This document shows positions 52,866 through 58,464 of a stretch of 64,000 nucleotides of DNA, one piece after another. The stretch covers positions 1,240,001 through 1,304,000 of the forward strand of contig NZ_JADOTZ010000001.1 of assembly GCF_015751895.1 (NCBI RefSeq), read 5' to 3'. The stretch's first letter is position 1, and every line of letters begins with the position of its first letter. The position numbers and the translations under genes were made by a program. The DNA is from Zhihengliuella flava (GTDB taxonomy: Bacteria; Actinomycetota; Actinomycetes; Actinomycetales; Micrococcaceae). Under the pieces are notes generated by a model. The model searched no databases. It was not told the DNA's origin and saw nothing but the letters and a program-made list of their open reading frames with translations.

Positions 52866-53242
52866 AAATACGCGCCGCCCCTTCCATAGCCGCGCGAAAT
52901 CACGTTCAGCAATATTCCATTAAAACCGCGCAGCAACGTATCTTGCCATGCCTCAGTGTTCACTATCTATTAGTGGCCCAAATTTGCACTCATGACACCC
53001 AGCCGTCAATCGGTCGACACAGTACACTCCACGCATAACTTCAAACCACCGCTTGAAAGAGAAGACCACACAGTTCACCTAAAAGCCTCGCAAAATATCG
53101 GAGCATCTAACATATTCCTCACCAGCCGAGTAACCACGACTGATTCGAGACGAACGGCTGGACATCCATGCTTGTTCTAGGAATTTGGTAGCATTCGAAG
53201 ACAACTCGCACGAGCGAGAAGATTTCCAACTTGGGGGGCAAC
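52866..53242. other. 377-bp AT-rich gap at the island edge
   Basis: Clearly AT-richer than the preceding DNA, with no convincing gene; a 62-codon frame at 52992 has no signals. The stretch near 53180-53195 (GAATTTGGTAGCATTC) may hold a -10 for the next gene. I found no tRNA or direct repeat that would mark an integration site. Confidence 0.5.
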
Positions 53243-54049
53243 ATGCGTCAGGACCTCGCCACGGCGACTTCACACTTGGAAACCGCTACCGGCCGGGGTG
53301 CCTCTAACATACACGGCGTTGAGAATTACCTTAGGGACGGAGAGACGGTTTACGCCGTTGCGCTCGTTGGTATTTTCAACTCGCATGCAGTTGCGGTCGT
53401 AACAGATACACGACTCTTCATTACGACCTCAAACGTCATATCTCTTCCCATTGTCCGCACAACGCTGAACGCCACACAGAGTCAAGACGTCGTCCACACA
53501 GTGATTGGCCACGCAGGGGCATCTTACGAAATAAGCTTCTACAGTACGGCCTACGGCCAGTGGATCGACGGTTTCATTCGCGCGAAGAACGGCCAAGAAC
53601 CCCGAGGAAAGTTCGAACCACTACAGGTCGAACAGAAATTGGATACTCCCGATACTCTTGCAGGACAATCCCACGACAAGCAAGCCCCTGGAAAGGGCCA
53701 CAATAATCCTGCACTAGGATGCCTTGGTATTCTCGCCGTCATTGTTTTGGGCGCTTTCCTCTTTAGTTCATGTGACGAAGGTGGATCAACACCGTCCCCT
53801 AATACCAGAGAAGCTGAGCGTATGTGCGAAGAATCCATTTCGGGCGCCTTGAGAGCGCCGTCAACGGCTTCATACAGCCACCGAGTGCAAACACATAGCA
53901 CGAACGCAAATGACTACAGAATATTGGTTGATGTTGACGCGCAGAATGGTTTTGGTGCCATGGTTCGTGAAACTTACAGCTGTAAGCTCCTCTGGCATCC
54001 GAGCACGCGAAGTTGGGACCTCACGAGTGTCACTCAGCAACCGTTCTAA
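53243..54049 (+). CDS. hypothetical protein with PH-like domain and one membrane helix
   Basis: 268 residues from ATG 53243 behind GGGGGG. Residues about 25-110 (VENYLRDGETVYAVALVGIF, VAVVTDTRLFITTSNVISLP) resemble the bacterial PH/YokE-type domain. A hydrophobic helix (LGCLGILAVIVLGAFLFSS, about 158-176) precedes a C-terminal domain with two Cys (RMCEESISGALRAPSTASY, YSCKLLWHPSTRSW). AT-richer codon use than neighbours suggests acquisition. Role unknown. Confidence 0.6.
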   Translation: MRQDLATATSHLETATGRGASNIHGVENYLRDGETVYAVALVGIFNSHAVAVVTDTRLFITTSNVISLPIVRTTLNATQSQDVVHTVIGHAGASYEISFYSTAYGQWIDGFIRAKNGQEPRGKFEPLQVEQKLDTPDTLAGQSHDKQAPGKGHNNPALGCLGILAVIVLGAFLFSSCDEGGSTPSPNTREAERMCEESISGALRAPSTASYSHRVQTHSTNANDYRILVDVDAQNGFGAMVRETYSCKLLWHPSTRSWDLTSVTQQPF

Positions 54050-54365
54050 GTGACGTGCATCTACACCACCTGGCCACCTAACCCCTTCGACCCAGAGCTA
54101 GAACTGAACCCAGGACGGTTCAAGCCAGGTTCACAGCCGGCCGCGTAGCGGACGCCCCATAGCCGATCTCCGAGCTAGCGAGGAGACCGGCCTAACTCTC
54201 GGTGAGGTCCCGTGACCGACCTCGCTCTACGTCCAGATAGGATCGGCAGAAACGTCGCAGTTCAAATGACTCGGCAACAGCACTGCGCTCTTGCGTCTCG
54301 TGTACGCGAGCTAGGCAAGAGCACATCGCGCCACCGGGGGAATGGTGTCGCAGAAGGGGTACTCA
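54050..54365. other. 316-bp gap with hairpin before the methyltransferase
   Basis: Contains an imperfect hairpin CCGATCTCC/GGAGACCGG (54163-54190, one mismatch, loop GAGCTAGCGA) that could terminate the gene at 53243, and a TAGGAT box (54238-54243) that may be the -10 for the methyltransferase operon. No gene seen. Confidence 0.4.
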
Positions 54366-55721
54366 GTGGCAGAGAAGAGTAGGAACTCGAGCCTCACGGC
54401 TGCGAAGAAGGCAAAGAACGATGAGTTCTACACGCAGTGGGCGGACATTGAGCGCGAGATGAACGCCTATCTCGAATACGACCCTGATGTATTCCGCGGA
54501 AAGACTGTCCTACTGCCTTGCGATGATCCTGAATGGAGTAACTTCGCCAAGTTCTTCGCGCTGCATTTCTCGGACTACGGACTGAAGAAGCTCATCTCCA
54601 CCAGCTATGCCCCGAACAGCAACCCGAACGTGAAGGACGTGTACGCACCAACGCTGTTTGAGTTTGACGACCCAAAGTTCGATGAGACGAAGACACGCGA
54701 GAATGGGAAGAAGTTCGTTCTCGATGCAAACGATCTCAACGGCGACGGGCGAGTAGACATCGACGACCTCACCTGGGAGTACCTAGAAGGCGATGGCGAC
54801 TTCCGCAGTCCAGAAGTGACGGAGCTGCGCGACGAAGCTGACTTCGTGATCACTAACCCACCGTTTTCACTCTTCCGTGATTTCCTGGGTTGGCTTGTCG
54901 AGGGAGACGTGCGGTTCTCCATAGTCGGCAACAGCAATGCCATTACGTACCGAGAAGTGTTCCCCTTGATCAAGGGGAACAAGCTCTGGAAGGGTGCCAC
55001 AGCAAATTCCACGGACATGGTGTTCGGCGTCCCTAAGGGCACTGCGGTCAAGGAAGCAGACAGACAGAAAGCCGAACGGATGGGGTACGCCTCCAATGAT
55101 GAGTACGACTTCACGCGCCTCGGAAACTCGTGCTGGTTCACAAATATTGAGCATGGGCGACGGCATGAGCCTCTGCAGCTGATGACAACAGCCGATAACG
55201 CTAAGTTCAGCCGACACAAGGACGTACGCGACTCCAACTATGCAACGTATGACAATTTTGAGGCGATCGAGGTTCCGTACGTAGATGCCATCCCCAGTGA
55301 TCACCAGGGCATCATGGGTGTTCCCATCACCTTTCTCGATAAGTACAACCCTGATCAGTTCGAGATCCTCGGCACTACTGAGGGCGACTACCCTGCCACG
55401 AAGAAGTATGCGAAGAAGAAGCGTGTCGTGAACGGGGTCCCCCAGAAGTCGAACACAGGAACAATGAGTGGAGTCATCCGCGAATCTGAATTCGGTAAGG
55501 GCACCTACTTCGATGTTGGCTACCCAGTCCGCGCCGTGTACAAGCGCATCCTCATCCGTCACCGCAATGAGGCCAACGGCAATCTCCGTGTTGTGTTCGG
55601 CGAAGGCACAGGACTTCAGGACGTCGAAGTCGAGTCGCCTAATAGCACGGTTAACGTTCGCAAGGTCACGGACGAACAGGGCAACACTCGGCTGGTTGCC
55701 GAAGGGGGGAGCGCGGAATGA
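54366..55721 (+). CDS. adenine-specific DNA methyltransferase, EcoRI family
   Basis: 451 residues from GTG 54366, chosen for AAGGGG 6 nt upstream; ATG 54342 adds eight residues with a poorer site. The N-terminus [18 protein letters not shown] is typical of this family. Catalytic NPPF is at residues 164-167 ([15 protein letters not shown]), which marks an N6-adenine (gamma-type) enzyme. Just before it lies [12 protein letters not shown], an EF-hand/dockerin-like loop. Should methylate adenine in a short recognition site. The TGA overlaps the downstream nuclease ATG. Island codon use. Confidence 0.85.
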
Positions 55722-56905
55722 AGACCACATTGAAGCAACACACAGTTGCCGCGGTCACCAAGGGATTCGTCTACAACGAACTTGAAGCTAAGGGCCTCTA
55801 TGGCCTCTCAGGTTCTCTCGTTATCCAGCCTGAGTATCAACGCAACTACATCTACGGCGACGGTAAGAAGGACGTTGCCGTCATCGAATCGCTGCTTAAG
55901 GGCTACCCGCTCGGCCTGATCTACTTCAACGACGCCAGCGCAGCGTTCAGCGACGGCAAGGACCACTTCGAAGTGCTGGACGGCCAGCAACGCATTACCT
56001 CCATCGGCCGGTTTGTCACTGGCAAGTTCGCCATCAAACGCGGTGACCGTGAACAGACGTTCTCGTCTCTGCCCGCCGAAGATCAGGCACTCATCATGGA
56101 CAGCCAGCTGCTCGTGTACGTGTGTGAGGGCACGGAAGGTGAGATCAAGGAGTGGTTCAAGACGATCAACATCTCCGGTGTCCCGCTCAACGAACAGGAA
56201 CTATTGAACGCCGTCTACTCGGGACCGTTCGTCACAGCGGCCAAGGCAGAGTTCTCTAACTCAGGCAACGCCTTGCAGCAGAAGTGGGGCGCGTATGTAA
56301 AGGGTGATCCCAAGCGCCAGGAGGTGCTTGAAACGGCTCTGGAGTGGGTCTCTGACTCGAAGGGCCAGTCAATCGAGCGGTACATGGCCGATCACCGACA
56401 CGATTCAGCCATCACGGAACTAAAGACGTACTTCACCACGGTCATCGACTGGGTAGGGGGCGTGTTCACGCGGAGCCCTGACCCGGAGATGCGCGGGCTT
56501 CCGTGGGGTAAGTGGTACGAAGAGTACAAGAACACGGCCTATGATCCGGGCGCTCTCGAGGCCCGGGTTCAAGAGCTGCGCGAGAGCGAAGCTGTGCGGG
56601 ACCGAAAGGGTATTTACCCCTTCGTGCTCGGCGGCGAAGAGGACACTCGCCTGCTCAATGTGCGGTTCTTTGAGCCCTCCACGATTAAGGCTGCCTACAA
56701 GCGTCAGACGGCGGACGCGAAGTCCCAGGGGATCTCTAACTGTCCCTTGTGCGCGGTTGGCAACAATGCCAACAAGACTAAGATTTGGGCGCAGAAGGAG
56801 ATGGACGCCGATCATGTTCACGCGTGGTCAAAGGGTGGGGCCACCACCGCCGAAAACTGCGAGATGCTGTGCATCACGCATAACCGCGCCAAAGGGAACA
56901 GGTAA
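55718..56905 (+). CDS. DUF262 (GmrSD-like) protein with C-terminal HNH nuclease
   Basis: 395 residues. The DUF262 ParB/NTPase-like domain covers about residues 20-230, with [10 protein letters not shown] and the diagnostic DGQQR at 88-92 ([13 protein letters not shown]). C-terminal HNH nuclease: CPLC at 342-345, DADHVHAW at 363-370, then [19 protein letters not shown], giving zinc Cys pairs and the catalytic His/Asn/His. Related DUF262 proteins act in Type IV restriction (GmrSD) and other anti-phage systems. 4-nt overlap with the methyltransferase makes the pair one module. Confidence 0.85.
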
Positions 56906-57660: not shown

Positions 57661-57765
57661 CACCCAACCCATTCTGTGAGGCCGGCCACATAGCCTTCCC
57701 TGACCGGCCACACACCGGTTTCCGCCACTTCCCAGGCGGGATCATCACCACCGTTGGGGGACCTC

Positions 57766-58464
57766 ATGAACACCACCATCACCACGCGGAGGCCGCGGGC
57801 CTCCGCCCGGCGGGCGCTCACCGCGCTCTTCGCTTCCGCCGGCCTGCTGTTCGCCATCGCGGCGTGCGGGTCCGGCTCCACGGAGGACGACGGCGCCGCC
57901 ATCGCCTCCGCGTCCATCGACGCCGCAGCCGCGTCCGAATCCGCCGCTGCAGAAGAAGCCGCCGCGTCCTCGAGCGCCGCTGCCGAGTCCTCCCGTGCCG
58001 CGGAGGAGTCCGCCAGCGCGGCCGCCGAATCCTCCCGCGCCGCCGCCGAGGCCGAGGCCTCCCGGCAGGCGGAAGAAGAGGCCGCTGCGGAGGCCGAAGC
58101 TGAGGCGTCGCGAGAGGCTGCCGAGTCCGCTGCCGCGGCCGCCGAGGCCTCCCGCCAAGCCGAGGAGGAGGCCGGGACCGTCAGCCAGCAGAACGCACTG
58201 CGCAGCGCCAACAGCTACCTGGACTTCACGGCGTTCTCCCGCACGGGCCTCATCGATCAGTTGATCTTTGAGGACTACTCCGCCGAGGACGCCACGTGGG
58301 CCGTGGACCGGGTCGACGTCGATTGGATGGAACAAGCTGCGCAGTCGGCACAGGACTACCTGGACTTCACGGGCTTCTCCCGGCAGGGGCTGATCGACCA
58401 GCTGATTTTTGAGGGATTCACCCAGGAGCAGGCCGTCTACGGAGTGGACCAGACCGGGCTCTAG
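57766..58464 (+). CDS. Ltp-family surface lipoprotein with two C-terminal repeats
   Basis: 232 residues from ATG 57766 behind GGGGGA. Signal peptide with lipobox (LLFAIAACGSGS, Cys about 31), a long low-complexity stalk of Ala, Glu and Ser (about 38-138), then two tandem copies of about 42 residues with A-x-YL-DF-x-x-FSR-x-GLIDQLIFE (about 142-185 and 190-232). This repeat is the Ltp family (host cell surface-exposed lipoprotein, PF07553). Streptococcal phage TP-J34 Ltp blocks DNA injection by other phages. Whether this one does is unknown. Confidence 0.8.
   Translation: MNTTITTRRPRASARRALTALFASAGLLFAIAACGSGSTEDDGAAIASASIDAAAASESAAAEEAAASSSAAAESSRAAEESASAAAESSRAAAEAEASRQAEEEAAAEAEAEASREAAESAAAAAEASRQAEEEAGTVSQQNALRSANSYLDFTAFSRTGLIDQLIFEDYSAEDATWAVDRVDVDWMEQAAQSAQDYLDFTGFSRQGLIDQLIFEGFTQEQAVYGVDQTGL

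Follow-up and report, generated by a model that had tools for sequence, protein, structure and literature searches.

How can a methyltransferase of the EcoRI family and a nuclease of quite another family work as a pair, and which of the two chooses the DNA target? The question is raised by two adjacent genes in a stretch of 64,000 nucleotides (the window, positions 1240001-1304000) of the 2.9 Mb single-contig genome of Zhihengliuella flava. One codes for an EcoRI-family adenine DNA methyltransferase (M) and the other for a DUF262-HNH nuclease (R). Both proteins already have PADLOC models, named 'Type II methyltransferase' and 'Type II restriction enzyme' and nothing more specific, and the R model matches all 69 aligned R over their full length. 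Full-length models of both proteins rule out a defence idea without precedent. No NCBIfam model was above cut-off for M or R. A literature search for DUF262 together with methyltransferase, Type II, HNH or EcoRI found no study of the M-R pair in the texts it covered, subscription papers and REBASE being outside its scope. PF13651, the family of M, appears among the Pfam models by which viral methyltransferases were sought (PMC7248222), and a methylome study of Prevotella intermedia describes an EcoRI-like M next to a restriction enzyme, with no GAATTC methylation (PMC5608340). RAATTY/GAATTC methylases of Campylobacter and Acinetobacter, which may or may not belong to PF13651, were set aside as guides to the specificity of M. 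The original prediction of an under-described system missed that R is already classed by PADLOC among the Type II restriction enzymes; what is new here is how the pair varies, with a mosaic of two segments (V1 and V2) in M beside a constant R.

The locus and its two proteins

The two overlapping genes first proposed are confirmed by their open reading frames, by Pfam (PF13651 in M, PF03235 and PF01844 in R) and by the ATGA shared between the stop of M and the start of R (Table 1). From its ATG, M has 459 amino acids, and R has 395. The span originally given to the pair, 54366..56905, includes both genes and starts M at an in-frame GTG located a few bases 3' of AGAAGGGG; this alternative is at least as plausible as the ATG at 54342 that opens the longer frame. 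The pair is also, as had been noticed, AT-richer than its surroundings, with a GC of 0.55 in M and 0.58 in R against 0.67 in the LacI gene and 0.71 in the lipoprotein gene. A full-length R is absent from all four further genomes of the genus, one of which gives a partial match of 32%, and R at 70% identity was found in G413, of the same family, and G429, of the same order. The low GC and the lack of a full-length R in the four genus relatives fit horizontal acquisition, and by these signs the stretch was probably acquired. A clean empty site was discarded, the flanks standing apart in the two genus relatives where both were found (G396 and G398).

Two other genes of this region deserve mention. 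The one at 53231-54046 (+) codes for a protein of 272 amino acids with no Pfam match, the C-terminal half of which resembles PHROG 13160 (function undescribed). Its GC is the lowest among the five genes measured (0.53, GC3 0.54), and it perhaps belongs to the same acquired stretch as the pair. At 57754-58461 (+) there is a lipoprotein with repeated Ltp domains (PF07553, 2e-31) that matches phage superinfection-exclusion families (PHROG 15667, 4e-37); DNA related to this gene was found at other places in genus and family relatives.

Table 1 Features of the M-R pair in positions of the window
Feature	Position	Strand	Basis
M, EcoRI-family adenine DNA methyltransferase gene	54342..55721	+	ORF; PF13651 E 3e-117; PADLOC MTase_II 8e-86
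CDDPEWSNF core motif, M residues 60-68	54519..54545	+	C60, D61, D62, P63, S66 and F68 invariant in 73 aligned M
EF-hand-like (calcium-type) loop, M residues 131-142	54732..54767	+	sequence pattern
NPPF, M residues 172-175	54855..54866	+	sequence; invariant in 73 rows
V1, first variable mosaic segment, M residues 212-262	54975..55127	+	putative target-recognition domain 1
V2, second variable mosaic segment, M residues 345-400	55374..55541	+	putative target-recognition domain 2
C-terminal tail of M, residues 409-459	55566..55718	+	gap in nearly all aligned relatives
R, DUF262-HNH nuclease gene	55718..56905	+	ORF; Pfam; PADLOC REase_II 3e-92; fold match BrxU E 1.5e-4
DUF262/GmrSD_N part of R, residues 35-167, ParB/Srx-like fold	55820..56218	+	Pfam, predicted fold
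DGQQR nucleotide-site motif, R residues 88-92	55979..55993	+	invariant in 69 aligned R
HNH part of R, residues 341-395 (NCPLC, DH, N and HN residues)	56738..56902	+	Pfam, alignment, fold (4h9d HNH nickase match)

The PF13651 match covers residues 18-369 of M with 392 bits against a gathering score of 26.4, which makes M a member of the family. The motifs read from the letters at the outset, NPPF in M and DGQQR and HNH in R, are all there, and they are invariant in the 73 M rows and the 69 aligned R respectively (for HNH, residues D365, H366, N380 and H388). After V2 the window M carries about 50 extra residues that have no counterpart in nearly all its relatives. Pfam identified in R GmrSD_N, that is DUF262 (PF03235, 7e-21), HNH (PF01844, 5e-6) and, weakly, PF14279. 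The predicted fold of R (pLDDT 88, pTM 0.59) was nearest to BrxU, and ParB, SspE and an HNH nickase were also matched with weaker E-values. R has the DUF262 with DGQQR of Type IV GmrSD enzymes; Pfam found in it no DUF1524, the C-terminal domain of GmrSD, and no known modified-base reader domain beyond DUF262. For M, a Foldseek structure search gave no PDB match below E 1e-3, and sequence searches for solved relatives returned nothing useful for either protein.

Pairing of the two genes across genomes

Scanning species genomes with R yielded at least 578 relatives, of which 80, with 61-69% identity in the best segment, were kept. Judged by their titles, these 80 of at least 578 come from Actinobacteria, Bacteroidota, Saccharibacteria, other Patescibacteria, Spirochaetes, Chloroflexi, Proteobacteria and one archaeal MAG. 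An EcoRI-family M lies upstream on the same strand in 80 of the 80 kept (of at least 578 listed), which excludes chance pairing; three of the loci (L035, L042 and L048) have other open frames between M and R. In addition, genomes were sampled with R only, and it was found in 26 of 344 genomes from the order of a Saccharibacteria genome, 41 of 393 from the order of a Bacteroidales genome and 8 of 299 from the family of a Microbacteriaceae genome. Out of 83 matches in the three samples 67 were fetched as loci (28/28, 30/46 and 9/9), including six genomes that are also among the 80 (L147, L148, L150, L158, L210 and L214). M is upstream of R in 63 of these 67 loci and in 36 of 37 viral loci. The exceptions, four and one, are all at contig ends (within 150 bases in the four sampled loci), and R without M was seen nowhere that this could be tested. 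The pairing is observed directly, and the conserved neighbourhood proposed as a check of the prediction holds for 63 of the 67 loci sampled, contig ends accounting for the remaining four. The suggestion of a 'Type IV-like' defence finds no such support, since a free-standing modification-dependent enzyme requires no M and here R always comes with M where testable; a free Type IV-like nuclease was rejected for this reason. Adjacent methyltransferase and restriction enzyme genes are, on the other hand, the arrangement of Type II systems.

The pair is also found on mobile elements. R matched 236 plasmid records, in 43 of which the match spans 80% or more of R, and Flavobacterium phage laban6-1 carries both genes. 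Searching from the side of M, PF13651 was present in 11 of 396 genomes of a phylum sample and R was downstream in 8 of the 11, the window's included. As for the other M of this sample, L087 has no R within the fetched stretch, L082 ends with the contig and L091-L092 are broken pieces.

Two subfamilies of R could be distinguished, A, which includes the window R, and B, about 40% identical to it. Subfamily B is common (L083, L084, L086 and others), with R of about 360 amino acids and M closer to M.EcoRI; two of its loci, L196 and L197, have V2 swapped and a near-identical R. Four loci (L043, L067, L113 and L120) contain two tandem M genes (363-411 aa) before one R, the two M being.20-.29 alike in V1 and.16-.23 in V2. 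A third gene in the system was ruled out, as no flanking family occurs in more than five of the 80 loci. The top flanking families occur in 5 of 80 (one gene and four others), 76 of the 80 loci having one flank or both longer than 1.5 kb, and the most shared ones look like recombinases by sequence. A gene annotated as Shedu immune nuclease adjoins the pair in the Dietzia plasmid L234. In the Vibrio harveyi plasmid L229, M is followed by a subfamily-B-like R start cut by the record end; because of this start the M of L229, L233 and L095 were left out as 'M without R' controls.

Variable segments of M and a constant R

The aligned M consist of a conserved core and two segments, V1 and V2, that come in discrete types common to distant phyla. 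Median identities were calculated leaving out M shorter than 300 and R shorter than 345 amino acids. For subfamily A (136 rows including four duplicate genomes, 9180 pairs) the median pairwise identity was.65 in R and.64 in the M core, falling to.22 in V1 and.07 in V2, and the Spearman correlation with R identity was.40 for the core,.07 for V1 and.11 for V2. Subfamily B (33 rows) gave medians of.62,.61,.22 and.10 in the same order, with correlations of.35 between R and V1, which tracks R weakly, and.13 between R and V2. The duplicates L210, L158, L088 and L214 (= L010, L028, L012 and L054) were dropped from the pair, typing, 20-residue identity and loop counts; L124 (= L097) was dropped as well, and L135-L138, with R cut off, were left out of the sampled loci. 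Along the 132 remaining subfamily A loci the mean pairwise identity per 20 residues was.13 in V1 and.08 in V2. Other low stretches of M were the N-terminus (.18), residues 91-130 (.34-.41) and the tail of the window M itself, and the lowest value anywhere in R was.42.

Typing at 50% identity produced 32 V1 and 57 V2 types, with 76 V1-V2 combinations in the 119 rows whose types both recur (M.EcoRI among them), and V2 types common to both R subfamilies and M.EcoRI. Judged by these types, V1 and V2 recombine. Of 165 loci, 14 share V2 (at least.5) with the locus nearest to them in R, and 47 share V1. Among the 165 non-duplicate loci there are 21 pairs with R at least.95 identical, and V2 is below.35 in 17 of these pairs and both segments in 14; many come from one Saccharibacteria group. 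Swaps at R of at least.90 occur in separate groups (L023/L024, L033/L055, L059/L066, L196/L197, L199/L203 and L211/L054). In the Bacteroidales pair L023/L024, R differs at one of 386 residues and the M are 27-31% alike in V1 and 14-17% in V2. Their DNA, compared in blocks of 60 bases, is.85-1.00 identical over most of the M core and R and drops within the cassette only at V1 (.48) and V2 (.43), with further differences beyond R and over one stretch upstream of M. That M varies in modules and R stays constant is observed directly, and the variability suggests that V1 and V2 are probably target-recognition domains, i.e. the parts that read DNA. Both segments of the window M fall outside the EcoRI clusters in this typing, so the EcoRI sites located in the window were left out of account. 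Both clusters of the window M are shared with L012, L014, L018, L021, L141 and L157, which should for that reason have the same or a similar target.

A small control is provided by M located downstream of a gene of the true R.EcoRI family (four loci and six pairs; L094 from Escherichia, L228 and L235 from Klebsiella, L232 from Leuconostoc). Here V1 (.70-.93) and V2 (.81-1.00) are above the core (.65-.88) in each pair. Small as the control is, it points to segments that are kept where the partner has its own specificity and free beside DUF262-HNH.

The calcium-type loop of M, which we take to resemble those of dockerins, also differs between the two situations. Its pattern was found in 111 of 132 M of subfamily A and 29 of 33 of subfamily B (127/136 and 29/33 with a looser pattern), in none of the four M beside R.EcoRI, and once in a background of 60,742 residues; the L229 M, before its subfamily-B-like R start, does not have it. 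As a pattern it is typical of M that accompany DUF262-HNH R, yet not universal, and it is a candidate docking site for R. By sequence, M had a single PDB match (E 0.038), to a carbohydrate-binding protein that aligns with it along this loop.

Furthermore, 9 of 188 rows (duplicates and the window included) contain a simple repeat inside V2: (AG)15 in L002, (GA)9 in L030, (GA)13 in L053, (GA)6 in L098, (CA)21 in L133, (GA)11 in L165, (GA)7 in L170, two (AAGC)4 in L174 and (GA)6 in L175. Most of these loci are MAGs or metagenome contigs, in which repeat counts can be wrong, and L174 starts at a contig end with M visible only from the repeat onward. In these loci two or three versions of the V2 cassette, or of its end, stand in separate frames, an architecture observed directly in the relatives. 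L002, L030, L053, L098, L170 and L174 have further complete V2 entries in other frames; in L133, L165 and L175 the frames have one entry in common and diverge into three V2 ends. In every one of the nine, no more than about 30 bases separate the end of the last frame from the start of R. By our own reading, the V2 that bears the repeat, or its end, is of EcoRI type in eight; L002 has its EcoRI type in the final cassette. L030 and L053 are in different frame states with R 97% identical, and in L002 and L098 M is now in a stop frame with R intact. Under a null of synonymous codons the observed openness had a frequency of.106 in L174 and.214 in L098, so that two of the nine are not unusual, and between 0 and.05 in the other seven; another version of this null gave.011 for L030 and.079 for L053. 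The window M has neither repeat nor spare V2 cassette, and is for this reason a fixed-state member rather than a phase-variable one.

Possible working of the pair and comparison with known systems

We favour, with a probability of about 0.6, a two-gene restriction-modification module in which M doubles as the specificity subunit for a constant effector, R. M would read its DNA target through the two exchangeable domains V1 and V2 and methylate an adenine in it. R would have no site specificity of its own and would work through M, probably bound to it, its NTPase (DGQQR) freeing the HNH nuclease only once M meets an unmethylated target. Whether V1 or V2 is swapped through recombination or the V2 repeat slips, marking and cutting would be retargeted together, so that the host would not be left with an unmatched nuclease. 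We infer in this way the DNA contact of V1 and V2, the M-R complex, the gating by NTP, the cleavage and the defence; the roles first assigned to the proteins, M protecting the host and the NTPase gating the HNH, appear likely. Points that weigh on the other side are the missing PDB match for the M fold, the further weakly conserved stretches of M, the fixed state of the window M, the two repeat loci that the codon null makes unremarkable (and the.079 of L053), the uncertain repeat counts in metagenomic loci, the weak link of V1 to R in subfamily B, the P. intermedia case, whose R may or may not be of this kind, and the L229 M without the calcium-type loop.

An R with a fixed specificity of its own should not survive such changes in M, so R most likely acts through M, and two interchangeable segments beside a constant R speak against an ordinary site-specific Type II enzyme. 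In such an enzyme R itself would recognize the sequence of M, a few R residues altering the specificity, and both the full-length PADLOC REase_II match and the presence of M with R wherever testable would agree with it. We nevertheless regard it as very improbable: in L023/L024 one R residue in 386 changes while both V segments change, one R serves two different M in the four tandem loci, V2 switches frame with R constant, and the four real EcoRI pairs show the opposite pattern. The next best explanation, though an unlikely one, is that R senses the m6A made by M in any context, the mark releasing or restraining R and unmarked phage DNA being cut. SspE, a DUF262-DUF1524 protein, is reported to read a host mark (PMC9646914), and it is among the matches of the predicted R fold. 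As such an R would read the methyl group only, the specificity of M would be free to drift, and a constant R with a variable M is accounted for as well. Yet this R might be confused by m6A from unrelated methyltransferases, the stop-frame M of L002 and L098 would leave it without a mark, and apart from DUF262 Pfam finds in it no known reader domain for modified bases.

We give equally little credit as to the Type II enzyme to an epigenetic switch or addiction module, in which M would mainly alter gene expression and R would be a toxin restrained by the M protein, with defence secondary. Carriage of the pair by plasmids and phages fits this, and phase-variable methyltransferases of other types are described as phasevarions. 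Against it, the nuclease and NTPase motifs are invariant in the 69 aligned R from many phyla, and the sporadic distribution (0/4 in the genus) is usual for defence genes.

If M does direct R, the textbook family of EcoRI methyltransferases includes restriction systems that are programmable, the swap of one short segment changing the target, a logic like that of Type I carried by two small proteins. A marking enzyme that tells the cutter its targets could let the pair be retargeted quickly. This could explain failed predictions of specificity by homology to M.EcoRI and supply combinable recognition modules for DNA tools, and it could extend known phase variation by a switch of specificity with three positions set by the reading frame. 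Whether all this amounts to a widespread unrecognised class is to us an even bet. In such a class EcoRI-type M with two plug-in domains would direct a sequence-blind DUF262-HNH nuclease, perhaps docked via the calcium-type loop, and in some lineages the V2 repeat would pick among up to three domains by frame, giving heritable retargeting.

Among known systems, GmrSD and BrxU have, like R, a DUF262 with DGQQR and an HNH-type nuclease part, and BrxU is the best fold match. They are not known to require a methyltransferase. GmrSD and BrxU are reported to act on modified cytosine and to carry DUF1524 (PMC4619093, PMC12707154, PMC10952713); R has PF01844 HNH and an accompanying M. SspABCD-SspE also combines modification genes with a DUF262-HNH effector gated by NTP hydrolysis, but its mark is a phosphorothioate and it is reported to have a sequence-specific reader and DUF1524 (PMC9646914), while the partner here is a methyltransferase. 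LlaJI is similar in that a Type IV-like NTPase-nuclease has turned into a methyltransferase-protected system; it differs by recognizing its own site through a B3 DNA-binding domain and by having two methyltransferases (PMC12707154). In the MhoVII system of Mycoplasma hominis the target recognition domain of the Type II methyltransferase contains a dinucleotide repeat, but the outcome reported is a full-length or truncated enzyme, and the passages on it do not mention alternative recognition cassettes in other frames (PMC12898733).

Type I systems, with TRD1 and TRD2 of HsdS, share two variable recognition segments and a constant nuclease (PMC12707154), and their specificity is described as switching by recombination (PMC7394358). 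They have a separate HsdS and a helicase-type HsdR, whereas here the variable segments are inside the methyltransferase; no separate HsdS or translocating HsdR was found, with no third gene in more than 5 of 80 loci and an R made of DUF262 and HNH only. The EcoRI system itself is the nearest on the side of M: M.EcoRI belongs to the same family, with 39% identity over residues 9-348, and L108 and L201 have both V1 and V2 of EcoRI clusters. R.EcoRI, in contrast, is of another endonuclease family and is encoded upstream of M, V1 and V2 stay alike and the four M beside it are without the calcium-type loop. In the class outlined above, classical EcoRI may be the relative with fixed specificity.
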